A stretch of 64,000 nt of DNA from Leptolinea sp. HRD-7 (lineage in GTDB: Bacteria; Chloroflexota; Anaerolineae; Anaerolineales; Anaerolineaceae). The stretch's first letter is position 1. The number at the start of each line of letters is the position of its first letter. Position numbers and translations under genes: made by a program. The notes beneath the pieces are model-generated. The model was not told the DNA's origin, did not search any database, and was given only the letters and a program-made list of their open reading frames with translations. The stretch covers positions 2,388,001 through 2,452,000 of the forward strand of contig AP024710.1 in assembly GCA_024363285.1 (NCBI GenBank), given 5' to 3'. Below are positions 3 to 14,962 of the stretch, piece by piece.

Positions 3-1502
3 ATTCTTCAGGGAGAACGCCCGATCTTTTTCTACGGACAATCGTATATGGGCAGCCTTGACGCGTTTCTCGTAGCTGGTCTTTTTTCCCTGTTGGGCGA
101 ATCCGTTTTAGCTATCCGGATACTTCAAGTGATTCTGTATTCCTGTACTATTATAACGACAGCCTTACTGGGACGAAAATTAACCGCTGATTGGGCAACA
201 GGTTTGCTTGCCGCTTTGCTTTTGTCTGTGCCGGTTGTCAACACGACTTTATATACAACCGTCACTCTCGGAGGGTATGGGGAGACTCTTCTTCTGTCAA
301 ATATCGCGTTTCTCTGTTCAATGCAGTTAATCTCCAACGCAGATAGAACGACTCCTGGAAAAGACGTATTGGTTTTCGGCTTTCTGGGATTTTTCTCAGG
401 GTTGGGATTCTGGGTTCTTGGACTTTCTCTGGTGTCAACCATTCCGGCTGTCTTTTTCGCGTGTGTGGAACTGTGGAAACGACGGAAAAATCTACCAGGT
501 GGATGGGTTACGGCGACGCTAATATTTATCCTGGCATTCATCCTGGGGTCATTTCCGTGGTGGTTTGCCAGCTTACAGGCAGGATTTTTAACACAACTCA
601 AGGAACTTTTTGGGTCGGCTATAGCGGTGGAAAATGAGAATTGGGTAATTCGTTCAATTAAGCATCTGTTCTATTTTATCTTCCTTGGATTGCCTGCCGC
701 GTTAGGTCTGCGTCCCCCATGGGATGTCAAGTGGTTAGCGCTGCCTCTGCTACCTTTAATAATAATGATCTGGGGATGGGTATTCTGGAAATTCCCGGGT
801 ATTTATAAGAATGAAACCCAACCTACTCGCTTGGGCTGGAAAATGTTGATCATGTCTGTCGGATTGTTGATGGCAGGATTTGTTTTTACCTCGTTTGGAT
901 TGGACCCATCAGGACGGTATTTCCTGCCGCTGGTAATTCCACTAGCTCTTTGCATATCACGCGTGGTTGTAAAAGCAGAAGTACCTCGTCGTATCCGGTA
1001 TGCTATACCCGTAATACTATTGGTGTTTGCTGCAATTGGAACAATTGAATCCGCTGTCGGATCACCCTGGATAACCACTCAGTTTGACCGGGTAAGTTGG
1101 ATTGATCACCATTATGATGATGATTTGATTCATTTTTTACAGTCAAATGGCGAAACCCGCGGTTATTCAAATTACTGGGTAGCATATCCACTGGCTTTCC
1201 TTACTGAGGAAAAAATTCTCTTTGTGCCTCGATTACCCTATCATCAAGACCTTCGCTACACCAGCCGGGATGACCGTATAGCGCGATACACCGAATTGGT
1301 GGATTCTTCACCACAGACGGCCTATATTACAACATTTAATCCTTCGTTAGATCAAGCCTTAAGGGAAGGTTTTACCCGGTTGGGTGTGACGTGGAAGGAA
1401 AAGAAAATCGGTGATTTTCTTATTTATTATTCATTAAGCCGACCAGTCAGACCGGCTGAGATTCAGAATGAATTAACTCCCCGCATGGAAAACGTGAAAT
1501 GA
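3..1502 (+). CDS. GT-C-like polytopic membrane protein, 5' truncated
   Basis: The reading frame is open to the left edge of the window, so the gene starts outside it; the first ATG (48) is internal, and the residues before it (GERPIFFYGQSYMGS across 12-56) are a typical conserved loop of Chloroflexota GT39-like membrane proteins. The visible 499 residues hold about ten hydrophobic segments, then a soluble C-terminal part of roughly 130 residues, as in GT-C enzymes that transfer sugars from polyprenyl-phosphate donors outside the membrane. The substrate cannot be read from sequence. The stop overlaps the next start by four bases (ATGA), so the two are translationally coupled. The family call is from architecture and the loop motif; enzymatic activity is inferred. 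Confidence 0.75.
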   Translation: MLQGERPIFFYGQSYMGSLDAFLVAGLFSLLGESVLAIRILQVILYSCTIITTALLGRKLTADWATGLLAALLLSVPVVNTTLYTTVTLGGYGETLLLSNIAFLCSMQLISNADRTTPGKDVLVFGFLGFFSGLGFWVLGLSLVSTIPAVFFACVELWKRRKNLPGGWVTATLIFILAFILGSFPWWFASLQAGFLTQLKELFGSAIAVENENWVIRSIKHLFYFIFLGLPAALGLRPPWDVKWLALPLLPLIIMIWGWVFWKFPGIYKNETQPTRLGWKMLIMSVGLLMAGFVFTSFGLDPSGRYFLPLVIPLALCISRVVVKAEVPRRIRYAIPVILLVFAAIGTIESAVGSPWITTQFDRVSWIDHHYDDDLIHFLQSNGETRGYSNYWVAYPLAFLTEEKILFVPRLPYHQDLRYTSRDDRIARYTELVDSSPQTAYITTFNPSLDQALREGFTRLGVTWKEKKIGDFLIYYSLSRPVRPAEIQNELTPRMENVK

Positions 1503-3031
1503 CCTCTTCCGATTATGATCCCTCACCCCAAAAATCCACAAGTGGGTTTCAGCTTTTAATTCCGGTACTCGTAGTTTTGATGGTATTTCTGGTCGCGTCA
1601 CGTTCACCAATCGATTCTGACCTGTGGTGGCATTTGCGCAGCGGGCAGGTAATGATTGAAACAGGGCATCCATTGATTACCGATATGTTTTCGTATACAC
1701 GCGAAGGAGAAACCTGGGTAAATCATTCCTGGTTGGGAGAGATCATTTTATTTGGTTTATACCGATTAGGAGGATGGACAGCCATTTCTGCCTGGATGGG
1801 TGCGATGGCCGCACTGACGGCTGTGTTCCTCTGGTGGCAAACCAGGGGAAATACATATGTAAAAGCCGGTTTTATTCTTTTGGCCAGTGTGGTATGCGCT
1901 CCTCTCTGGACACCGCGTCCTCAGTTTTTTTCATTGGTACTGCTTGCGCTACTTGTGTGGCTGATTAACCGCTGGCTAGACCGGGGAGGGCATTCAATCT
2001 GGTTCTCCGTCTTACTATTTATTCTATGGCCCAATCTCCATGGCGGATTTGTGACAGGAATTCTCTACCTTCTAGCCTATTCGGTTGGATTGCTGATTGA
2101 TGCATTGAATGATACCGGTGACACGCGGAAGATGTTATTAAAAAAATTAAGACTTCTCTTGCCTGTAACCGTTGGAGGATACCTTGCGTCGGCGGTCAAT
2201 CCGAATGGTTACCGGATGTGGCTTATTCCATTTCAAACAGTTGGCGTACGTGTTTTACGGCAATTTATTCAAGAATGGAGTTCTCCCGATTTCCATTCGG
2301 TGGAATCATGGCCGTTCGCGCTTTTTATTATTCTGATGATCTTCTGCCTGTCTCGTCAAAGAGAAAAAACATCATTGCGGTTAATATTTCCGGCAATACT
2401 ATTCATACTCATGGGATTGTATGCCCGGCGGAATATGGCAGCCGCGGCTATCACTGGAATCGGAGTCGTAATAGATGCATGGAATTCCATGACGGTGGGC
2501 AATTTTTTACGGCATTTGGTTCCGAACGAATGGTTGGAATGGATAAAAAACTACCGGGCCGCACAAAAACAGTTCAGTGTTAATCAGATGAAATGGATAA
2601 ATCTGATCATTGCTGGATTTCTGGGTTTGATCTGTTTTATAAAACTTTTTATAGTCGGATATCCAGGATTGATGCGAGTGTATGAGGCCAAATATTTTCC
2701 GATGGATGCCGTCTCTTTTATCTTGAAGACTCCTTCCATCTGTGAAGGTAGAGTTTTTAATTCATACAACTGGGGCGGATATCTGATCTGGAGAGATCCG
2801 CGCGTGAAAGTATATGTAGACGGCCGAACCGATCTTTTTGGTGATGAAATTCTTGGGGATTGGATGACAATCATTCAGGCTGGGAATGAGTGGCAGAATT
2901 TACTGGAAAAATGGGATGTCACACGGGTGATTATTGAGCCAAACCGTCCATTGGCCTCGATAATATCGTCAAAGGGGTGGGTGGAACGTTACCGTGACAC
3001 GCAGGCTGTTGTATTTGATCGAAAAAAATGA
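1499..3031 (+). CDS. GT-C-like polytopic membrane protein
   Basis: 510 residues with about ten membrane segments. After the first membrane helix comes an extracytoplasmic loop with an acidic, tryptophan-rich motif (IDSDLWWHLRSG, about residues 38-49) followed by FSYT and WVNHSWLGE, the position where GT-C proteins carry their catalytic Asp/Glu. The C-terminal 100 residues are soluble and include the conserved-looking YVDGRTDLFG. The gene starts inside the stop codon of the preceding one and is followed by a 74 bp gap. Likely role: transfer of a sugar from a lipid-linked donor to a surface glycan or protein; donor and acceptor are unknown. Confidence 0.72.
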   Translation: MTSSDYDPSPQKSTSGFQLLIPVLVVLMVFLVASRSPIDSDLWWHLRSGQVMIETGHPLITDMFSYTREGETWVNHSWLGEIILFGLYRLGGWTAISAWMGAMAALTAVFLWWQTRGNTYVKAGFILLASVVCAPLWTPRPQFFSLVLLALLVWLINRWLDRGGHSIWFSVLLFILWPNLHGGFVTGILYLLAYSVGLLIDALNDTGDTRKMLLKKLRLLLPVTVGGYLASAVNPNGYRMWLIPFQTVGVRVLRQFIQEWSSPDFHSVESWPFALFIILMIFCLSRQREKTSLRLIFPAILFILMGLYARRNMAAAAITGIGVVIDAWNSMTVGNFLRHLVPNEWLEWIKNYRAAQKQFSVNQMKWINLIIAGFLGLICFIKLFIVGYPGLMRVYEAKYFPMDAVSFILKTPSICEGRVFNSYNWGGYLIWRDPRVKVYVDGRTDLFGDEILGDWMTIIQAGNEWQNLLEKWDVTRVIIEPNRPLASIISSKGWVERYRDTQAVVFDRKK

Positions 3032-3105
3032 CAAAAATTAGAATGAGATTATCAATAAGACGATGAATTATAATCCTGGCAACTACGCTGAATCGGGAGA
3101 TTGAT

Positions 3106-4353
3106 TTGAGAAAATATCGGGATTTACAGATATGGCTGGTATCTGCCGTGGGGTTGGTCATTTTTCTTGCCGCGTTAACGTATGCCAACCATTATTATGC
3201 TGTAAGAAATCCAGGGGGTACTGATTTTCTCGTTCACTGGGTGGGTTCGCGGGCACTGATAATTGATGGAATAAGCCCTTACAGTGATGAAGTGGCAGGC
3301 CGAATTCAGACTATGGTTTACGGACGGCTTGCCCAGGCTGGCGAACATCAATTGCGTGTAGCTTACCCTTTATACAGTATTTCGATATTTTTGCCATTCG
3401 CGTTAATCCCTGACTTCAACCTGGCGCGGGCAATATGGATGTCGGTATCAGAACTGGCGCTGGTTGGACTGGCGATACTTTCCATGCGTCTCACTGATTG
3501 GAAACCCGGTTTTGGTCTGACAGTCGGATTTATTCTTTTTTCCATATTCTGGTATCACGGTATCCGGCCGTTGATCAATGGTAATGCGGTTATTCTGGTG
3601 GCGTTTTTATTGGTCGCCGGACTGATGGCGTTACGCAACAGGGCGGATGAACTGGCCGGTGTGTTATTCGCCTTTATGACCATTAAACCACAACTGGCGT
3701 TGGTATTTGTTTTATATATGACCTTCTGGGGAATCTCCAATCAGCGTTGGCGTATGTTAGGCTGGCTTTACGGAACAGTGGTCACTTTAGCCGGTGTTGC
3801 CACTCTGTTAATTCCCGATTGGATTCTGCAAAACTTGCGCGAAGTGGTTCTTTACCCGAAATACAACCCGCCGGGTACTCCGGCTGCCATTTTTGCTGAT
3901 TGGCTTCCGGCTACCGGAGCGAGGATTGGTTTGGCACTTTCTATTATTCTGATCATTATTTTGATCGTTGAATGGTTTCTTTCAAGGCGATTTGAATTTC
4001 GGGGATTTATGTGGACGGTTTGCCTCACTCTGACCGCTTCACAGTGGATAGGAATTCAGACCGACCCGGGTAACTTCATTATTCTTCTCCCGGTTCTGGC
4101 ATTGATATTCTCAACCCTTGATGAGCGTTTTCGTCACATGGGCCGGTATTTCGTCTGGTTCCTTATGGTGGTTTTGATCATCGGCTTATGGTGGATGTTT
4201 TTAGCTACTCTATCTTATTCCTATCAACCAATTCAAAGTTCAGTCATGTTCTTCCCTTTGGTTGCGTTTTGCTTTATTCTTCTTTACTGGATTCGGTGGT
4301 GGGTAATTCGGCCTTCAACCCTCTGGTTCGACCAGATTTCCATGCGAGGTTGA
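3106..4353 (+). CDS. GT87-like (DUF2029) membrane mannosyltransferase family protein
   Basis: 415 residues, about ten membrane helices. The motif GTDFLVHWVGSRAL with ISPY downstream (about residues 38-65) matches the DUF2029/GT87 family, whose studied members are polyprenyl-phosphomannose-dependent mannosyltransferases. Start is TTG at 3106, preceded by GGGAGA at a suitable distance; no ATG gives a comparable N-terminus. It is the only GT87-type member of the array, whose other genes look GT39-like. The product lacks the soluble C-terminal domain of its neighbours. Sugar specificity is not inferable. Confidence 0.7.
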   Translation: MRKYRDLQIWLVSAVGLVIFLAALTYANHYYAVRNPGGTDFLVHWVGSRALIIDGISPYSDEVAGRIQTMVYGRLAQAGEHQLRVAYPLYSISIFLPFALIPDFNLARAIWMSVSELALVGLAILSMRLTDWKPGFGLTVGFILFSIFWYHGIRPLINGNAVILVAFLLVAGLMALRNRADELAGVLFAFMTIKPQLALVFVLYMTFWGISNQRWRMLGWLYGTVVTLAGVATLLIPDWILQNLREVVLYPKYNPPGTPAAIFADWLPATGARIGLALSIILIIILIVEWFLSRRFEFRGFMWTVCLTLTASQWIGIQTDPGNFIILLPVLALIFSTLDERFRHMGRYFVWFLMVVLIIGLWWMFLATLSYSYQPIQSSVMFFPLVAFCFILLYWIRWWVIRPSTLWFDQISMRG

Positions 4354-4417
4354 TCTGCGGCGGATAATAGCGCATCCCCTTGCTGGCATTTTATGCGGAG
4401 CGGCAGTCATCCGACTG

Positions 4418-5830
4418 TTGGGTGTCACAACCCGTGGAATTCAATATGATGACGGGTTCAGTATTCTGCTTGCTGGTCGATCTATCCCTGAGATCATTTC
4501 AGGTACGGCGGCAGATACGATGCCGCCTCTGTATTATCTAATTCTTCATTTCTGGGAAATGGCCGGAAAGTCAATTGCTTTTTTGCGTTTGCCCGGTATC
4601 ATCTTCAGTCTGGGTATTATTTATCTGACATATATTATGGTAGAGAAAGCTGCCAACCGGAATGCGGCAGTCTGGTCGGCAGCGATCCTTGCCGTGTCAC
4701 CATTGCAGTATTACCACGCGCAGGATATTCGGATGTACAGCCTGGCAACATTTTTTATTCTTGGATGGAATTGGGGCGCTTTGGAAGTTAGCTATATTGA
4801 CCATCCTCGGAATTTACCAGTTTGGAAATGGTTCTATCTGGTTCTTTGCGGAACCGGAGCTTTATATTCTCACGCGTTGTCAGGATTTGGCTTGCTGGCT
4901 TCTTACGTGTACTTATTATGGACACGAAAAGGAAAACATTTTTTGTGGATGGCGGTGGCGGGTGCGGTTTCCCTCGGTTTATATTTCCCGTGGTTGACCA
5001 TGGTTCCAGGTCAGGTGGCTAAAATTCAGAGAGCCTTCTGGACACCCGTTCCCGGTATCGTGGAAATCTTACAGTCTGTGATCATGGCTCTTGGCGATAT
5101 TCCGGCACCACCCGTAGTTCTGGGAATTGTTTTATTCGCGGCAATCTGTGTTTTTATTTTATCTATTATCAGTATGGCCAAAAACCGGAGTAAAAACGAC
5201 AGACTTCAGTTTTTTGGATTGATGATGGTTCTTCCGCCGGCATGCCTATTCATTCTTTCATACATTATGCGCCCTATGTTCGTGCCTCGAGCGTTCTTGA
5301 GTGCTTATGTTGGTATGGCAGCTGTCTTAGGAATAATCCTATCGCGCTCAAGGAAAATAGAAAAAATTCTAATTGGTTTGTTCATTGCTCTGAGCGCCAT
5401 AATCACTTTACCATTTTCCATTTCCTTTGACCGATTCCCGCGGTCACCATTCTATCTCGCAGATCAGTATCTTGAGCAAACCGTAGGGGTTGACGATGTT
5501 ATCCTGCATGATAACAAACTCAGTTATTTACCTTCAAAGGTTTATAAACCGGATTTGGACAGTCGATTTCTTGCGGATGAACCCGGTTCAGCGAATGACA
5601 CACTGGCCATTCAAACGATGGACGCAATGGGTATTGAACCCTATACCCGTGTTGAAAACGCGATAACGGGATACAAGCGCGTCTTTTTTGTTGTGTTTGC
5701 TCAAACGATTGATGAGTATTCCAATTCCGGAGGGCATCCGGTAATGAAATACTTGTTTTCCAAAGCGGGTGAGCCTGTCAGGCATGAATTTGGCGACCTC
5801 ATGATTATGGAATACACAATGGTGAAATAA
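4418..5830 (+). CDS. GT39-like polytopic membrane glycosyltransferase
   Basis: From TTG 4418 the product has 470 residues with the family hallmark of two acidic residues after helix 1 (YDDGFS) and PPLYYLILHFW (about residues 38-48), then HAQDIRMYS, all typical of ArnT/PMT-like GT-C enzymes. From this TTG, however, the protein lacks its first membrane helix. The frame is open upstream to 4307 and encodes a hydrophobic stretch (AGILCGAAVIRLL) directly before it. No ATG, GTG or TTG exists there, but CTG 4355 follows GAGGT at 4346-4350 with ideal spacing, so I think the true start is CTG 4355, next to the stop of the preceding gene. The C-terminal 120 residues are soluble. Confidence 0.72.
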   Translation: MGVTTRGIQYDDGFSILLAGRSIPEIISGTAADTMPPLYYLILHFWEMAGKSIAFLRLPGIIFSLGIIYLTYIMVEKAANRNAAVWSAAILAVSPLQYYHAQDIRMYSLATFFILGWNWGALEVSYIDHPRNLPVWKWFYLVLCGTGALYSHALSGFGLLASYVYLLWTRKGKHFLWMAVAGAVSLGLYFPWLTMVPGQVAKIQRAFWTPVPGIVEILQSVIMALGDIPAPPVVLGIVLFAAICVFILSIISMAKNRSKNDRLQFFGLMMVLPPACLFILSYIMRPMFVPRAFLSAYVGMAAVLGIILSRSRKIEKILIGLFIALSAIITLPFSISFDRFPRSPFYLADQYLEQTVGVDDVILHDNKLSYLPSKVYKPDLDSRFLADEPGSANDTLAIQTMDAMGIEPYTRVENAITGYKRVFFVVFAQTIDEYSNSGGHPVMKYLFSKAGEPVRHEFGDLMIMEYTMVK

Positions 5831-5835
5831 CTCGG

Positions 5836-7434
5836 ATGAGACGGTGGGATTATTTCTTTCTCTACGTTATCGGTCTGGTCTTTTTCGGATTATGCAGCCT
5901 GTGGATAAAATCTCCCGGATATATGGACGCGGAGTATTACACCCTGTCTGCGATTCAGATGGCAGAAGGGAAAGGGATGACTCAGCCAATCATATGGAAC
6001 TATCTGGATGATCCATCCGGAATACCGCATCCATCACATACTTACTGGATGCCGGCACCTTCCATTCTTGCGCTATCCGGAATGCTGGTTACTGGAAAAC
6101 CAGATTTCAATTCTGGAAGATTGTTCTTTATTTTAATCGCCGCGTTGGCAGCACCGGCAGCAGCCTGGATGGGGTTTCGTTTCAATCAGAATAGATTATC
6201 GGGTTGGCTTGCAGCAATTTTCGCAGTTTTTTGCGGCTTCTATGCGCCATATTCTTCAACCATTGACAGTTTTTTTCTAATGATGCCGTCTGCGTGGTTG
6301 ATATTTTATGGAATTGACAGGGCATATGTCTCTGCTTACCCGCTTCGATGGCGCGGCTGGTTTCTTGTTGGCCTGGCTTGCGGATGGATGCACCTCAATC
6401 GGGCTGACGGTTTTCTTTGGGTAATACTTGCTGTCGGTGTCTGGTTATCCTTTTTTCGAATATTTCGAGAATGGAAAATAAAGGATCTAACCGGTATTTT
6501 GCTTCTAATGGGTGGATACTTACTGGTGATGGGCTTTTGGTTTGTCCGGAATTTTTCTCTGTATGGAAGTCCGTTTATTCCCCATACTATCCGCGCATTA
6601 TGGGTAACTCAATATAACGAGATTTTCTCTTATCCATCCGATATTTTGACAGTCTTTCACTGGCTTTCCTCCGGCTGGAGTGTCATTTTGTCAGACAGGT
6701 TTGGCGCGTTGGGTTATAACCTGGTAATTATGATTGCTGTACAGGGCATGATTTTTCTGTTTCCATTCTGGATATATAGTGTTTGGAAACACCGACGAAA
6801 CCCAATCGTCATAGCCGGTACGGGGATGGAACTGGCGATACTCTTGATCATGTCTTTTGTTTTTCCATATACAGGAAGACAGGGCGGCTTTTTGCATTCA
6901 ACTGCCGCGCTTCAACCGCTAATCTGGGGATTAGCCGCCGCTGGTATTATGGATGCCCTGACTTTACTATCCAAGCGGTCAGGTTGGAATGTCTATCGGA
7001 CAATAAAAATGTACGTTCCCGGTATTGCCCTGTTGAGTCTGGTAGTGACTATTTTTATCTTTCAAATGCTGGTTTTAGGAAATACTCCCGAAAAACCGGC
7101 GTGGGAAGAAAGCTACCGTCGGTCTAATATCTCCGCAAAATTATTGACTGAGAACAATGTTCCAGATACCGCCCGTGTAATGATCAATAACCCGGCCGGC
7201 TTCTGGCTGGCGTCACGGAGAGAAGCCGTTGTCATCCCTGATGGTCCTCCTGAAACCAGTCTGACTGTTGCGAAAAAATTTAACATTCAATATATGATAC
7301 TGGAGAAACAATTGGTCACAGGATTATTCCCCCTGTATCGCAGCCCAAATGCTTTTCCAGGATTTGAATTAGTTGACCGAATGGAAGATCAGTTGTTGTT
7401 CCGGCTGTATCCGGAGAAAGCCGGCCTGAAATGA
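5836..7434 (+). CDS. GT-C-like polytopic membrane protein
   Basis: 532 residues, ATG start six bases after the previous stop. One N-terminal helix is followed by an extracytoplasmic loop with acidic residues (YMDAEYYTLS, about residues 31-40) and a Pro/His-rich segment (GIPHPSHTYW), then roughly nine more helices and a soluble tail ending in LYPEKAGLK. The layout is GT-C-like, but the loop differs clearly from the flanking members, so substrate specificity probably differs. Its stop overlaps the next start (ATGA at 7431-7434). Function is inferred from architecture only. Confidence 0.68.
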   Translation: MRRWDYFFLYVIGLVFFGLCSLWIKSPGYMDAEYYTLSAIQMAEGKGMTQPIIWNYLDDPSGIPHPSHTYWMPAPSILALSGMLVTGKPDFNSGRLFFILIAALAAPAAAWMGFRFNQNRLSGWLAAIFAVFCGFYAPYSSTIDSFFLMMPSAWLIFYGIDRAYVSAYPLRWRGWFLVGLACGWMHLNRADGFLWVILAVGVWLSFFRIFREWKIKDLTGILLLMGGYLLVMGFWFVRNFSLYGSPFIPHTIRALWVTQYNEIFSYPSDILTVFHWLSSGWSVILSDRFGALGYNLVIMIAVQGMIFLFPFWIYSVWKHRRNPIVIAGTGMELAILLIMSFVFPYTGRQGGFLHSTAALQPLIWGLAAAGIMDALTLLSKRSGWNVYRTIKMYVPGIALLSLVVTIFIFQMLVLGNTPEKPAWEESYRRSNISAKLLTENNVPDTARVMINNPAGFWLASRREAVVIPDGPPETSLTVAKKFNIQYMILEKQLVTGLFPLYRSPNAFPGFELVDRMEDQLLFRLYPEKAGLK

Positions 7435-8909
7435 GCTCATGGAACCCCATGGTGAATAAACGAAGTTTGTTCCTTATTATTATCAGTCTGGTTGTGGTTG
7501 GCAGTTATCTCGGATATTCTTATTACACCGGGTATAGCGGTTTTCCTCTGGATGACGCATGGATCCATCAGGTATATGCTCGAAACCTGGTGCTGCATCG
7601 AGAATGGGCGTTCAATCCAGGTCAACCATCGGGTGGGTCAACTTCACCATTGTGGTCTTTATTACTCGCAGGCGGTTACATCGTTGCGTTCAACCCGATC
7701 ATATGGTCAGCCATACTGGGATGGATTTCATTGGCAGGCGCAACCATTTTGACAGAGAACATTATCCGTTCGTTGAATAAGGATTATGCACCTGGAATTC
7801 CCTGGGCGGGGTTATTTATTGTTTTGGAGTGGCATCTGATCTGGGCAGCAGTATCCGGAATGGAAACCGCGTTCTTTTTTGTGATTCTATTACTTGTTCT
7901 ATGGCTTGCTTTAGGTTTTCCCCGGTTTACCTGGCTTACCGGAATGTTGATTGGATTGTCCGTATGGGTCCGCCCGGATGGTATTACCCTGCTGGGGCTG
8001 GTCATTTTTGTGGTCTTTTTCAATCCTGATATGCGACGAAATATTTGGTCGTTTTCGCGAAATATCATTCTGGGTTTTCTGGTTTTGTTTATTCCTTATC
8101 TTATTTTTAATTTTAATCAAGCTGGAACAATCTGGCCATCAACATTTGCGGCAAAACAAATGGAGTATCAGGCGGCAACGACATACCCGCTTATACAAAG
8201 GATTGGATCATTGCTTTTGCCGTTCCTGGCTGGAGGCGGGGTAACTTTAATACCGGGTATGATCGCTGGATTTTGTTACACCTTACGAGATAGGAATCCG
8301 ATTACCGCTTCGGTCTTTCTCTGGTTTACCGGGTATGTGTTTATGTATGCTCTTCGATTACCTGTTGTCTACCAACATGGCAGATATATGATTCCCGCGA
8401 TGGTTTTTTATTTTCTGTTCGCGTTGTGGGGAACAACGCGGTGGATGGGCGATTGGTTGCCCGGAAAGCGGACGAATCTGGCCCGTGTATTCTGGATGAC
8501 GTCAATTTTTTCCGTCTTGGGGCTCTTCTTTTTTATCGGATGTGATGTGTATCGTACAGACGTGGCTATTATTCAGACGGAAATGGTTCAAACTGCCCAT
8601 TGGCTCCGAGAAAATACACCCACTGATAGCCGGTTAGCTGTCCATGATATTGGTGCTGTCGGTTATTTTTCAGAACGCGAAGTAATCGATCTCGCCGGGT
8701 TGATTAATCCGGAGGTCATTCCAATCATTCGTGATGAGAACCGGTTAAAACAATATATCAATCAACAAAATGTTCAATTTCTTGTGACATTTCCCGGATG
8801 GTATCCTGAACTTGTCAAAGGTTTGAAACCAGTTTACCAAAGCGGTGGAACTATTTCTCCAAAAGCCGGTGGTGAGAATATGTCCGTTTTTCAATGGAAT
8901 TGGAAATAG
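7431..8909 (+). CDS. GT-C-like polytopic membrane protein
   Basis: 492 residues with about ten membrane segments. The first extracytoplasmic loop carries FPLDDAWIHQVYARNL (about residues 38-53) and then FNPGQPSGGSTSPLW, a signature common in Chloroflexota membrane proteins annotated as glycosyltransferase family 39-like; the paired Asp is the expected catalytic site. A short soluble C-terminal domain includes LAVHDIGAVGYFS and IDLAGLINPE. It is the last of six adjacent GT-C-type genes and is coupled to the one before by ATGA. Donor and acceptor are unknown. Confidence 0.72.
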   Translation: MSSWNPMVNKRSLFLIIISLVVVGSYLGYSYYTGYSGFPLDDAWIHQVYARNLVLHREWAFNPGQPSGGSTSPLWSLLLAGGYIVAFNPIIWSAILGWISLAGATILTENIIRSLNKDYAPGIPWAGLFIVLEWHLIWAAVSGMETAFFFVILLLVLWLALGFPRFTWLTGMLIGLSVWVRPDGITLLGLVIFVVFFNPDMRRNIWSFSRNIILGFLVLFIPYLIFNFNQAGTIWPSTFAAKQMEYQAATTYPLIQRIGSLLLPFLAGGGVTLIPGMIAGFCYTLRDRNPITASVFLWFTGYVFMYALRLPVVYQHGRYMIPAMVFYFLFALWGTTRWMGDWLPGKRTNLARVFWMTSIFSVLGLFFFIGCDVYRTDVAIIQTEMVQTAHWLRENTPTDSRLAVHDIGAVGYFSEREVIDLAGLINPEVIPIIRDENRLKQYINQQNVQFLVTFPGWYPELVKGLKPVYQSGGTISPKAGGENMSVFQWNWK

Positions 8910-8933
8910 TAATTGGGTTATTGTATAATTTCT

Positions 8934-8939
8934 ACAATA
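8934..8939 (+). promoter_or_regulatory. candidate -10 element (TATAAT)
   Basis: A perfect TATAAT lies in the gap between the last GT-C gene and the SRPBCC gene. The best -35 match (TTGGGT, 8913) gives only a 15-base spacer, so this is a weak promoter call. It would argue for starting the downstream gene at 9017. Confidence 0.35.
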
Positions 8940-9016
8940 TTTCCATGTACGGCTTTCAAATCCCTGTTCAATGCAGATTTTGGGTCGGATTGGATTGCAA
9001 AACAGGGATGACTTCG

Positions 9017-9910
9017 ATGAATATCAAAAATAACGGGTGGATAAAATTTTTACTGGGTTTCGTTATGGTCATGGCTATTCTATCTGGTGTTGTTGCTTTT
9101 ATGCCCGGATATATAGCCACATATGGCGCGACCGGAAATGAAGTTTCGGCGATATATCCAGGTGATGAAATCCTGACAAGACCTGTCATCGTGTGGACGC
9201 ATGGATGGTCTATATCTGCTTCGCCGGAAAAAGTCTGGCCATGGATAGCTCAAATTGGTCAATCCCGGGGTGGTTTTTACTCCTATACCTTCATTGAAAA
9301 CCTGATTTCACGCGATGGTTCATATCAAAATGCCATGCAGGTGTTAGAGCAGTATCAAGATCCCAAACCGGGGATATTTATTATTAAAGATATGCTTCCG
9401 ATCAAGGATGTAAAGAAAGGTGAATACTTACTGGCTGCTGTTGACGATTTCTTCGATATGGGCTGGACCTGGGGTTGGTACCTTCGGCCAGAAGGCATCA
9501 ATAGTTCCAGGTTGATCATCCGAATGAAAATTCAGGTTGACGGGGAGCAAGCCAATCCGGTTATGTTTTGGATGTTAAATGCCGGTGGTTTTGTTATGGA
9601 AAAAGCCATGCTTCGCGGGATCTCTGATCGCGCGGAGGGAAGGCCGTTTCCAGCACCAAACGAAATTCCTGAATTAATCATCTGGGTGGGAACATTGGTG
9701 GTTGGTCTGGCCTCTGCCTTGCAGGTGATCAGGCAAAAAAAATGGTTTTTCCCGTTAATGCTGGGCCTGACAAGTCTCGCGTCACTTTTGGTTTTTACTT
9801 TTGTTCAACCCAACAGTATCTGGCGGATACTCATCCTAATCCTATTGATTCTTGCTTACTGGGGTTGTGTAAAATGGGATAAAAATCCCGAAGAAAGAGA
9901 ACAAAAATAA
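9017..9910 (+). CDS. SRPBCC-fold protein with N- and C-terminal membrane helices
   Basis: The open frame reaches back to 8894, but ATG 9017 has AGGG nine bases upstream and places one N-terminal membrane helix at the very start (297 residues). The central soluble region has the pattern of bacterial SRPBCC proteins: ASPEKVWPWIAQIGQSRGG followed by FYSYTFIENL. Two further helices lie in the C-terminal 80 residues. SRPBCC domains bind hydrophobic ligands in a cavity; here the fold is probably on the outer face of the membrane. The ligand is unknown. It follows the GT-C array but has its own candidate -10 box, so co-operation with the array is only a possibility. Confidence 0.65.
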   Translation: MNIKNNGWIKFLLGFVMVMAILSGVVAFMPGYIATYGATGNEVSAIYPGDEILTRPVIVWTHGWSISASPEKVWPWIAQIGQSRGGFYSYTFIENLISRDGSYQNAMQVLEQYQDPKPGIFIIKDMLPIKDVKKGEYLLAAVDDFFDMGWTWGWYLRPEGINSSRLIIRMKIQVDGEQANPVMFWMLNAGGFVMEKAMLRGISDRAEGRPFPAPNEIPELIIWVGTLVVGLASALQVIRQKKWFFPLMLGLTSLASLLVFTFVQPNSIWRILILILLILAYWGCVKWDKNPEEREQK

Positions 9911-10004: not shown

Positions 10005-11108
10005 ATGACCAATAAAAAGGCAGAATCATCCGATCCCCTGCTTGAATTCCAACAAGAAATTAATAACGAACTTGAGCAATCCAGACGATCACTTTCGGAG
10101 ATACGTTTGATGCTTGAGCAAAGTCAGGCTGAATTGACACGCCTGACGCAGCGGAACGCGTCTATAACCGGAAAAATGCAGCAGGTTCAAAGCAATTTTG
10201 AGACATTGCCCCGCGAGGAATTGCGCGTTACTTTCAATGAAGCACTGGACGCTCAACAGCGTCTTCTGGTTATGCGCGGGCAGATGGATAAACTGCAATC
10301 TGATCAGTCGCACATTCAACGGTATATTGGCTATCTTGAAAAGGTTCAACTATTTGTTTTTAATGAGAAGGCCATTTCAAAGGATGTGAAACAACAACAA
10401 CAGCCGGCGTCCACAGGAGTTGATACACTGGCTTTAATGATGGATGCCATTGAGAATGACCGGATAAAAATATCGCATGAAATGCATGACGGTCCGGCTC
10501 AGGTGCTGTCTAACTTCATCATTCAGGCAGATATTGCCAATCACTTGATAGATATCGATCCGGCGAAAGCCAAGATTGAATTGGAAAACCTCAAAGCCGC
10601 GGCAGAATCAACATTTAAACGGATTCGTGCCTATATCTATGAGCTTCGCCCGATGACTCTGGATGACCTGGGTCTGGTACCCACGATCAAGCGGTTCTTT
10701 GAAAATTTCGCCGAACAAAACGGAGTTGAATATAAATATGAATACAAAGGGGCAGAGCGTAGACTTGTCAGCTACCTGGATGTCCTGATTTTTCGCGCCG
10801 TTCAAGAATTACTGGCAAACGCGGTAGATCACAATAAAGACTATCCGGTAAAGTTGCAAATCTATGTGCAGGTGATTTACGAAGATAGTGTAGTTCGGGT
10901 AATTGTTCGTGATAATGGTAAAGGTTTTGACACAACTCAACTTGAACAGACCGGTGGTCATGGGCTGCAAACATTACAACAGCGCATCAAGATGGCCGGT
11001 GGAGAAATAGAAATTGAGTCGCAACCGGGAAAAGGCTGTACCGTAACATTCCAGATTCCTGCGATTGAACCTGGCGGGGCTGCGCCTGAAATACCGCCGG
11101 TAAAATGA
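10005..11108 (+). CDS. DegS-like cytoplasmic sensor histidine kinase
   Basis: 367 residues without membrane helices. Residues 10-120 form a long coiled coil, as in the sensor part of Bacillus DegS. The phosphoacceptor motif is HEMHDGPAQ with His161, characteristic of HisKA_3 kinases, followed by an HATPase_c domain (N box [11 protein letters not shown]1 box DNGKGFD, G2 box GGHGLQTL). Start ATG 10005 has GGGAG upstream. No DegU/NarL-type response regulator lies nearby, so it is an orphan here. The C-terminal tail is Pro/Gly-rich. The signal it senses is unknown; the cytoplasmic location suggests an internal cue. Confidence 0.85.
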
Positions 11109-11139: not shown

Positions 11140-12309
11140 ATGTCGAAGACCATCGGAATTTTAACAGGCGGAGGCGATGTACCGGGACTAAACCCCTGTA
11201 TGAAAGCAGTGGTTATCGGCGCGCTTGAGATGGGATATCGCGTGCTGGGTATCCGCCGTGGATGGGCCGGATTGTTGAATTACAACCTGAATGAGCCATC
11301 AACCCATGATTATTATGTTCGCGAACTGCATCGTGAAGATGTTCGGACGATCGATCGAACCGGTGGAACATTCCTACATACATCCCGAACAAACCCGCAA
11401 AAAGTCACCCCAAACCGTATACCGGATTTCTTGAAAACATCCAATTTTGGAAAACAGATTTCCGATGACGGGATTATGGATTACACCGATTATGTGATGA
11501 AAGTGCTCGATCACCTGACGATCGATACACTGGTCACCATTGGTGGTGATGACACGTTAAGCTATTCAGCCCGTCTGCATAAAGAAGGCTATCCATGCAT
11601 TGCTATCCCGAAGACCATGGATAACGATGTTTTCGGTACTGATTATTGTATCGGCTTTTCTACCGCGGTTACCCGTAGTGTGGATATGATCACCAATATG
11701 CGTACATCTGTAGGTTCTCACGAGCGTATCGGTGTAGTGGAACTCTTTGGACGCAACTCCGGTGAAACCAGCCTTATCGCGGCATACCTATCTTATGTTG
11801 ACCGCGCCCTGATCCCTGAAGTTAAATTTGACATCAATAAATTGTGTGACTTCCTGGTAGAAGATAAACGGAATAATCCGTCGAATTACGCCATGATCAC
11901 TGTTTCAGAAGGCGCTATTATGGAAGGCGGCGACATCATTGAAAAGGGTGATGCCGACGCTTATGGTCACAAGAAACTTGGTGGTATTGGTGAGATCGTT
12001 TCCGCTGAGATCAAAGCCCGCACGGGGCAGGACATTATGTACCAGCAATTGGCTTACATGATGCGCTCTGGCGCCCCAGATTCACTTGACCGCATGGTGG
12101 CTATGTCCTTCGGCAATTTGGCCGTACAGTTGATTAGAAGGAATGAAACCGGGAAAATGACCGCCTTACACGGTGGTAAATACACCACTGTGCCGATCGA
12201 TATGATCATGGCAGGGAAAAAGACCGTGGATGTTCCCGCGTTCTATGATCTTGAGACATATCGCCCGAGAGTTAAAGACTTCATGGGCGTCCCGATGTTC
12301 TTGAGTTAA
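11140..12309 (+). CDS. pfp: 6-phosphofructokinase with PPi-type active site
   Basis: Phosphorylates fructose 6-phosphate to the 1,6-bisphosphate. The 389-residue protein has the PFK nucleotide loop ([11 protein letters not shown]) and catalytic region PKTMDND. Two residues decide the phosphoryl donor in this family: here GGDD (Asp138) and PKTMDND (Lys158) replace the two glycines of E. coli PfkA (104 and 124). Asp and Lys at these sites are the signature of pyrophosphate-dependent enzymes, so the step would be reversible and save ATP. A strong ribosome site (GAGGAGG) precedes ATG 11140. A second, ATP-type paralogue lies at 49315. Biochemistry is inferred from the residues. Confidence 0.88.
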
Positions 12310-13528: not shown

Positions 13529-13981
13529 TTACTCAACGTCGTTGTACGTCCAGTAACGGTTGGCAATGTAGTTCCACATCATTACCACGAGAATGGCAAA
13601 CGCCAGAGTGACATTATGGCCGATGAATGTGGGGGTGACGCCAATGTTGGGCAAAAAGGTTTCAGCAAGGTTGATCAACGGGTTTTCAAGGATAGCGAAT
13701 AATATAAGCCTGATCCCCATACCCACAAGACTGATCAGTAAAAATTGAACAGCCTGTTGCGCGAATGTTTTGGTACGTGAATCCGGGTATGTCCAGTAAC
13801 GGTTCAGAAGAAAGTTACTGGCTACAGCCATGATGAATGATAACGCGCTGGATACAATCGCTTTGATCAGAAAGATACTGGTGAATAAATTAAAGAATCC
13901 GAAATCAATTACCGCCCCAAACGCGCCTACAGCGGCAAATTTATAAAACCGGATTCTCTCGTGTCGTTTTGCGAGAATCAT
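13529..13981 (-). CDS. GtrA-family membrane protein
   Basis: 150 residues with four membrane helices and two copies of the GtrA hallmark: NRYWTYPDS after helix 2 and NRYWTYNDV at the C-terminus. GtrA proteins are thought to help move polyprenyl-phosphate-linked sugars across the cytoplasmic membrane. Its ATG overlaps the stop of the UDP-sugar enzyme by four bases, so the two are coupled. The context suggests that a sugar made in the cytosol is passed to the outer face, where GT-C enzymes such as those at 3-8909 use lipid-linked sugars; this link is inferred. Confidence 0.88.
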
Positions 13982-14937
13982 GAAAAACCTAATTTCTCCT
14001 TGAAATACGGTATTGTTTTATTAATTCCATCTTCCAGATTGGTTTTGGGTTCCCATTTGAGAATGCTGCGAGCGCGGGTAATGTCAGGTTGACGTTTCTG
14101 CGGATCATCACCGAGGCGCTGGTCCATTTTGATTTGAATCCCCGCTGGATTATTGGTAATCCGGTTGATCGTCTCGGCAAACTGTTTGATGGTTGTTTCA
14201 GCCGGATTGCCAATGTTGACAGGATAGTGCTCGTCTGACATCAGCAGACGATAGATTCCTTCCACAAGGTCATCCACAAAACAAAAACTGCGGGTCTGCA
14301 TGCCGTCACCATAGATGGTGAGCGGTTCCTTGCGCAGAGCCTGTTGGATGAAGTTCGGAACAACACGGCCATCATCAAGGCGCATGCGGGGGCCATAGGT
14401 ATTGAAGATGCGAACGATGCGTGTATCGATGCCGTGAGCACCGTGGTACGCCATTGTGAGGGCTTCCGCGAAGCGTTTGGCTTCATCGTATACAGAGCGC
14501 ACTCCTATTGGGTCACAATGACCCCAGTAGGTCTCTTTCTGTGGATGTTCAATCGGATCTCCGTAAATCTCACTGGTGGAGGCAAGCAAGAAGCGGGCTT
14601 TATGCGCGCGGGCCACACCCAGTGTATTGTGTGTGCCTAACGCGCCGGCTTTCATTGTTTGAATGGGGAGATTGGTGTATCCATAAGGAGAATTGGGGTT
14701 AGGGCTGGCGGGAGACGCGAAATGCATTACGGCATCTACTTTACCGGGAACAAAGATGAAATTTGCTACATCATGCCGGATAAATGTGAATTTTGGATGG
14801 CCGGCCAGATGAGCCAGGTTTTCCGGACTACCGGTAATAAAATTGTCCATGCCAATAACTTCATGACCTTCACCTAATAACCGGTCACAAAGATGTGATC
14901 CTAAAAAACCAGCGGCACCTGTGATAAGTATTCTCAT
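13978..14937 (-). CDS. UDP-glucuronate decarboxylase-like extended SDR
   Basis: The open frame extends to 15066, but ATG 14937 begins MRILITG directly at the Rossmann strand and has GGAAC upstream, giving 319 residues. It has GAAGFLG (NAD-binding), [23 protein letters not shown] (catalytic Tyr and Lys) and [16 protein letters not shown]. The combination of [18 protein letters not shown] and YDEAKRFAE is that of UDP-xylose synthases (UDP-glucuronate decarboxylases), which convert UDP-glucuronate to UDP-xylose. The family norm is YDEGK rather than YDEAK, so another UDP-sugar epimerase or decarboxylase remains possible. Coupled to gtrA. Confidence 0.8.
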
Positions 14938-14962
14938 TGTTCCTCTTTTCGAAGGGTTGATT

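Follow-up and report, generated by a model that had tools for sequence, protein, structure and literature searches.

An ordered array of GT-C-type membrane proteins with an AftB-like member, adjoining a histidine kinase gene and, in most sampled relatives, a Tad pilus operon in Anaerolineae

Surface glycans of Anaerolineae are, to our knowledge, hardly known, and a locus of Leptolinea sp. HRD-7 raises the question of what a row of seven adjacent genes for membrane proteins may contribute to them. The locus lies at the left end of the window, i.e. the whole stretch of 64,000 nucleotides that was analysed (contig AP024710.1 of assembly GCA_024363285.1, positions 2,388,001 to 2,452,000), and extends beyond its left border. 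The seven genes, denoted as P0 to P6, form a conserved and ordered set of GT-C type with intact catalytic positions and one AftB-like member, P6; the set is tied to a histidine kinase gene and, among the relatives sampled, in most cases also to a Tad pilus operon. With moderate confidence, the array is read here as an ordered set of polyprenyl-phosphate-sugar GT-C transferases that would build one extracytoplasmic glycan, with P6 ending it with a pentofuranose. The ties to the kinase and, in relatives, to the Tad operon go beyond what the first-pass annotation, made from the letters of the window, could see.

Six large polytopic genes occupy positions 3 to 8909, all in + orientation, as had been noted before. 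In the following, G000 denotes the genome of the window and L-numbers denote extracted locus regions. P1 (motif PFNSDEA) starts 175 bases before the window; the window start cuts its open reading frame, and 3..1502 represent its 3' part. The full gene (L021:11826-13502, + strand) encodes 558 amino acids (aa), and its motif was hidden from the earlier reading because P1 is complete only outside the window. It is followed, all on the + strand, by P2 (1499..3031, motif IDSDLWWHL), P3 (3106..4353, GTDFLVHW), P4 (4418..5830 as called, YDDGFS), P5 (5836..7434, YMDAEYY), and P6 (7431..8909, 492 aa, FPLDDAW). A seventh gene had been placed at the other end of the window; the gene that begins there (63081 on, 665 aa, L022:1081-3078) lies about 54 kb from the array and outside it, and it weakly resembles a GT-C family of relatives' arrays (24-26% identity, best E 9e-7). 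The true seventh member is P0, which precedes the window on the - strand (L021:10523-11809, between 192 and 1478 bases ahead of window position 1; 428 aa, motif PFHPDEST) and is divergent from P1. Overlaps of the ATGA type, reported for several genes, do exist, at exactly two junctions (1499-1502 and 7431-7434); the remaining three gaps among P1-P6 measure 74, 64, and 5 bases. When called from TTG at 4418, P4 is without the first hydrophobic segment that an N-terminal comparison finds in its orthologues. The frame 5' of 4418 encodes the expected segment, with ATG, GTG, and TTG absent there (region 4298-4450). Because the orthologues have the segment at this place, the true start is probably located upstream of 4418 at a non-standard codon, for which CTG at 4355, directly after the P3 stop, is a candidate.

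Are all these proteins GT-C enzymes? P3 matches Pfam GT87 with 53 bits (cut-off 25), and P0 matches PMT_2 above the cut-off (27.1 versus 26.1 bits). P1 and P4 remain under the same PMT_2 cut-off with 23.0 and 22.4 bits, and in the Pfam scan no family was matched by P2, P5, and P6. As P2 and P5 were left without a family by Pfam, they were chosen for structure modelling with AlphaFold2 (AF2), using alignments of 26 and 70 sequences, respectively. The P5 model has a mean predicted local distance difference test (pLDDT) score of 95.6, and each of its 26 matches in the PDB at E<=0.001 is a GT-C enzyme or a complex holding one (best Foldseek E 2.5e-9). In the VIA list Pmt4 comes first (Z 23.5, root-mean-square deviation (rmsd) 3.7, 355 residues), followed by AglB (21.8) and PglB (21.7). 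The P2 model (pLDDT 90.7) yields 13 matches at E<=0.001, again all GT-C (Foldseek E 3.0e-7), with the catalytic subunits of the yeast oligosaccharyltransferase (OST; VIA Z 18.4, rmsd 4.3, 439 residues) and DPY19 (Z 17.2) in the VIA list. For both models, the GT-C rows outrank all unrelated rows of the structural comparison, and solved GT-C enzymes cover the models over nearly their full length. P2 and P5 are thus modelled with the GT-C (GT-CA) fold, which they would share with Pmt4, PglB, AglB, and STT3, with an identity to these enzymes of about 10% over the aligned residues. The GT-C type put forward by the first-pass annotation is supported by these two models, by the GT87 match of P3, and by the match of P6 to AftB described below; P1 and P4 are putatively of GT-C type as well.

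In sequence searches against the PDB, the P5 and P2 profiles retrieve chance matches only, the P0 profile one chance match, the P3 and P1 profiles nothing, and the P4 profile a weak match to EmbC (E 0.049). Within the array, the best blastp pair among P0-P6 has E 0.017, and recent tandem duplication was rejected for this reason. Profile comparison by hhalign links P5 to P6 (97%, over nearly the full length), P1 to P4 (96%), P1 to P5 (93%), and P0 to P6 (91%), and on account of these links some members are regarded as old relatives; for P2 and P3, no such link to another member emerged. Since each gene also forms a separate orthologue group, the earlier view of different enzymes instead of recent duplicates is borne out. 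A candidate role of P4 as lipoarabinomannan (LAM)-capping mannosyltransferase was rejected, as the match to the NCBIfam mannosyltransferase model MT1671 reaches 42 bits, far under the cut-off of 900, and only two of 16 P4 relatives match this model.

If these proteins are glycosyltransferases, a catalytic acidic residue is expected near their first helix. According to passages of a report on AftB (PMC12041299), the tip of juxtamembrane helix 1 bears, in all GT-CA enzymes, an aspartate that is essential. In P0, P1, P2, P3, P5, and P6, an invariantly acidic column directly follows the first hydrophobic segment: D34-E35 of P0 (11/11 aligned sequences), D49-E50 of P1 (18/18), D41 of P2 (26/26), position 40 of P3 (19/19 acidic, 17 D and two E), and D31 of P5 (70/70), in addition to the P6 residue treated below. 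D11 of P4, at YDD, is likewise kept in 16/16 sequences; the preceding hydrophobic segment is visible in the orthologues only. The acidic first-loop residue proposed earlier is therefore conserved in every family, acidic in 11/11 to 70/70 homologues. For all acidic positions of these proteins, the mean conservation as acidic is 0.41 to 0.71, and each family harbors two to six further fully acidic columns, so that position and not invariance alone carries the argument. In the models, D31 of P5 and D41 of P2 sit at the start of the helix that follows the first transmembrane helix. Of the two outcomes that the first-pass annotation had named as refuting, structures without the GT-C core and homologues without a conserved acidic site, neither arose in the members examined.

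The profile of P6 finds one match among PDB sequences, AftB (9dlf, E 4.2e-6), the mycobacterial terminal arabinofuranosyltransferase (PDB 9dlf/9dlh), with which P6 aligns over 300 residues. In AftB, as stated in passages of PMC12041299, D62 of a DD motif acts as the nucleophile, T91, E172, and T274 contact the donor, and R221 and R372 are essential. P6 keeps the DD motif and this donor site: D42, T71, E145, R181, T238, and R318 correspond to AftB D62, T91, E172, R221, T274, and R372, and the six residues are identical in 59/59 aligned P6 sequences. Unlike AftB, P6 is 492 aa long rather than 669, and its array adjoins a kinase gene and, in relatives, a Tad pilus operon. A DprE1-type ALO domain (PF04030), as expected for supply of an arabinose donor, gave no match in G000, with a positive control in C. 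glutamicum, and matched in four of the 61 genomes; for lack of this match in G000, P6 is named AftB-like and not AftB.

G000 does encode a decaprenyl-phosphate phosphoribosyltransferase (C1:3245207-3246073; NF008977 265 bits versus a cut-off of 234; PDB 8j8j E 8.9e-43), about 850 kb from the array. As an AftB-like enzyme, P6 most likely adds a pentofuranose at the glycan end, and ribofuranose is the better guess than arabinofuranose, because the phosphoribosyl-polyprenol synthase is present and the DprE1-type oxidase was not found in G000. A DprE1-made arabinofuranose donor is the less likely option; another epimerase could do this step. Passages of PMC11127046 describe three-component systems, e.g. 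that of Citrobacter with a GT136 enzyme, in which a GT-C enzyme adds ribofuranose or other pentofuranoses outside the cell. G000 resembles them in combining a polyprenyl-phosphate-ribose synthase with GT-C enzymes, which makes ribofuranose possible without DprE1. It differs from what these passages describe in the distance of the synthase from the array, in harboring seven GT-C genes instead of one, and in having a candidate GtrA protein near the array in place of a MATE flippase. This GtrA-family gene (13529..13981, - strand; Pfam GtrA_DPMS_TM 80 bits), a candidate polyprenyl-phosphate-sugar flippase outside the array, lies 4.6 kb from P6 and overlaps a gene for an NAD-dependent nucleotide-sugar epimerase/dehydratase (13978..14940, - strand; Pfam Epimerase 166.8 bits), the pair being placed 4.6-6 kb downstream of the array. 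Synthase, flippase, and GT-C enzymes are thus not encoded together in G000. The GtrA neighbour is shared by 10 of 80 loci (cluster c22); a short-chain dehydrogenase/reductase (SDR) cluster, c15, occurs in 13 of 80, in some of them as a different SDR within the array. The earlier statement that the substrate pathway is invisible holds within the array of G000; it does not hold for the GtrA candidate and epimerase downstream, for the phosphoribosyltransferase elsewhere in the genome, or for relative L126, whose array contains a GT2 gene (L126:6249-6956).

How widely is the array kept? At E <= 1e-8, homologues were counted in 61 genomes, i.e. G000 and 60 relatives: P0 in 29, P1 in 38, P2 in 43, P4 in 34, P5 in 41, P6 in 43, and P3, with paralogues counted, in 51. 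P5 gives a single match in most genomes carrying it. Among 20 regions of relatives that were picked as looking contiguous, six hold the complete set of seven genes with order and orientation unchanged (L113-L116, L121, and L123), and L122 is a further one if the P3 match from the homologue search is added. When named genomes were scanned with the P5 profile, 339 loci were recovered, of which the best 80, all titled Chloroflexota or subgroups thereof, were kept. At a 100-bit cut, these 80 contain P5 in 76, P6 in 74, P3 in 66, P2 in 31, P4 in 25, P1 in 21, and P0 in 13 cases; the closest named P5 relatives among them are Leptolinea records with 51-53% identity. Wherever both P5 and P6 are encoded on the + strand (71 loci), they immediately adjoin each other. 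P3-P5-P6 thus make up the core of the array, whereas the form with seven genes is mostly confined to the wider family of the window; in other lineages, further membrane genes are added, whose products measure about 395 and 668 aa. Orthologues follow each other in the same order across relatives, i.e. the synteny across Anaerolineae that had been suggested as a check is found. Widespread homologues, conserved order, and conserved acidic positions together show that the array is more than a chance grouping.

Some accessory genes vary between these loci. In nine of the 20 relatives, a carbon-nitrogen hydrolase gene is located between P2 and P3 on the opposite strand (L114:8759-9553 and eight others); the array of the window is without it. 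This soluble gene was first taken for a cytosolic transferase, an assignment that was rejected when it proved to be the hydrolase. Positions 8894-9910 encode a 338-aa membrane protein with no significant Pfam family, which adjoins the array in three loci of the genus only (the window, L121, and L122) among 21 compared. No phage family was matched by P6 or by this protein.

A HisKA_3-type histidine kinase (10005..11108, + strand; Pfam HisKA_3 and HATPase_c), a conserved neighbour of the array, is followed in the window by a phosphofructokinase gene (PFK, 11140-12309). In most loci, a NarL-type regulator and the HisKA_3 kinase come 3' of P6, and after them genes that Pfam confirms as those of CpaB/RcpC, a receiver-ParA protein resembling CpaE, a T2SSE ATPase, and a pair of T2SSF proteins; these constitute a Tad pilus operon. 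Downstream genes were counted for the 50 of 79 core-bearing loci that extend at least 6 kb further. Of these, 47 have the kinase beyond the core, and 39 have Tad genes there, never from fewer than two Tad families. Phosphofructokinase occurs in ten, none with Tad genes, and L202 has neither. The locus of the window belongs to the phosphofructokinase group, and the Tad genes of G000 are found at C1:2494021-2499877, about 97 kb from the array: in this lineage, the Tad operon is elsewhere and the kinase stayed by the array. A few kilobases past the displaced operon, L217 encodes a PMT_2-like membrane protein under the cut-off (L217:4324-6084, 586 aa) and a GT4 glycosyltransferase (L217:6131-7381). 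As in many relatives, G000 has a second Tad-type ATPase (G000:C1:3470057-3471190, 519 bits).

P5 and the Tad-1 ATPase also co-occur across the 61 genomes: 39 have both, two P5 only (G009 and G040), nine Tad only, and 11 neither. The Fisher test gives p 2e-5, a value that ignores shared ancestry and the incompleteness of metagenome-assembled genomes and that depends on a Tad-1 cut of 700 bits chosen after the scores had been seen. Among the nine genomes with Tad only, G049 and G044 have other members of the array ahead of the kinase and Tad genes, G042 has P6 at this place, and in G038 a P6 fragment stands beside the regulator at a contig end. In the extracted regions of G020, G021, G036, G024, and G008, several of which are cut by contig ends, no array gene was seen. 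As in known Tad/Flp loci, CpaB, a CpaE-like protein, CpaF, TadB, and TadC are encoded downstream of array and kinase in many Anaerolineae; no description of a Tad locus linked to a GT-C array was found in the open-access full texts searched. For Litorilinea, which also belongs to the Chloroflexota, a passage of PMC13319060 reports pili of a kind consistent with Tad. From this neighbourhood we infer a functional Tad link, either by pilin glycosylation or by shared regulation, and a surface sugar coat and the pilus may be built or controlled together.

What, then, would the array do? As proposed here, it is an ancient, ordered GT-C set in which each enzyme would draw its sugar from a polyprenyl-phosphate donor at the external face of the membrane, where the acidic residue that follows helix 1 would be the catalyst. 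Working on one extracytoplasmic glycan, the enzymes would jointly extend it by successive or branching residues, and the AftB-like P6 would add the terminal pentofuranose, with ribofuranose as the better guess. We infer the donors, the sharing of one glycan, its acceptor, the cap formed by a pentofuranose, and a function at or together with the pilus. Several points weigh against this proposal. The enzyme activities of all members are predicted ones, and the assignment of P1 and P4 combines sub-threshold family matches, profile links, and motifs. In 30 of 52 arrays uncut upstream there are three such membrane genes, and many relatives have P3-P5-P6 only, from which it follows that the full chain is not always needed. 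No polyprenyl-phosphate-sugar synthase is encoded inside the array in G000, and the phosphoribosyltransferase is found in 60 of the 61 genomes, array present or not, for which reason it was rejected as an array-specific marker.

A similar enzymatic logic could serve a wall-linked or lipid-anchored polysaccharide like mycobacterial arabinogalactan or LAM, with the Tad linkage being historical. The AftB likeness of P6, the assignment of P3 to GT87, the Pfam family that includes PimE, and the MT1671 match of P4 speak for it; the P4 match is far under its cut-off and rare among P4 relatives, and the missing DprE1-type domain does not fit, so that this alternative is regarded as credible and yet unlikely. 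The mycobacterial lipomannan (LM)/LAM set (PimE, MptA-C, EmbC, AftB-D) likewise comprises several GT-C enzymes, an AftB member included, and works on one glycan. Its genes are largely scattered in the genome, unlike P0-P6, which form one ordered array in Chloroflexota. A passage of PMC3123699 describes LAM as built by an array of GT-C members. Alternatively, the glycan may belong to the Tad/Flp pilus: the GT-C enzymes would glycosylate pilins or pilus-associated proteins leaving the membrane, and kinase and regulator would switch pilus and coat together. This accords with the Tad genes after the core in most loci, with the P5-negative genomes G049, G044, and G042, with the co-occurrence of P5 orthologue and Tad-1 ATPase, and with the best structural matches of P5 (protein O-mannosyltransferases and oligosaccharyltransferases) and P2 (OST and DPY19). 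Precedents are found in passages implicating RcpC in Flp pilin glycosylation (PMC12307814) and proposing pilin O-glycosylation from a polyprenyl-phosphate pentofuranose in Pseudomonas (PMC11127046). Against it stand the lineage of the window, in which the array is succeeded by kinase and PFK genes with the Tad operon displaced, and the ten PFK loci without Tad genes, besides the limits of the Fisher test and the post hoc cut. The top structural matches, moreover, lie within a few Z units of enzymes with non-protein substrates, e.g. ArnT, and no pilin gene was found or looked into; a pilus glycan of this kind is considered rather unlikely.

It is improbable, in our estimate, that the genes are neighbours by shared regulation only and that, in line with the proposal of the first-pass annotation, every enzyme has its own acceptor and its own sugar. 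The mutual divergence of the members, the missing profile links of P2 and P3, and the varying array membership among lineages agree with such a view, whereas the conserved order, the strict P5-P6 adjacency, and the relatedness of P5 and P6 over nearly their full length fit a shared product better. For the S-layer, also named as a possible target, no support was found: none of the scanned neighbours is an S-layer gene by its Pfam matches, with no search aimed at S-layers having been made. Returning to the single extracytoplasmic glycan favoured here, its boldest extension, which we hold to be quite doubtful, is that the Anaerolineae Tad pilus and its sugar-coating enzymes are one inherited unit, controlled by the same two-component kinase. 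A varying row of GT-C enzymes, from three up to about a dozen and with P5-P6 last, would then place a pentofuranose-capped, probably ribofuranose-capped, glycan on pilins or pilus-associated proteins, and the lineage of the window would represent the unit after its split.

The conserved array, its AftB-like P6, and the Tad tie offer a testable entry to the surface of Anaerolineae, i.e. to the questions of which glycan is made, with which sugar, and whether it is borne by the pilus. The array also holds two predicted GT-C families without a Pfam model for the proteins of the window (P2 and P5), and P6, whose donor site is intact and AftB-like although it comes from outside the mycobacteria, would widen the known AftB-type chemistry. 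G000 gives 26 PMT_2 matches at E <= 0.001, among them neighbouring pairs at C1:53610/55112, 92840/95344, and 3230326/3231848, and is called rich in GT-C-like proteins because of these matches. About 6 kb upstream of the array, two adjacent genes (L021:4413-5123 and 5135-5830) look similar to each other and thymidylate-kinase-like when their translations are inspected by eye.

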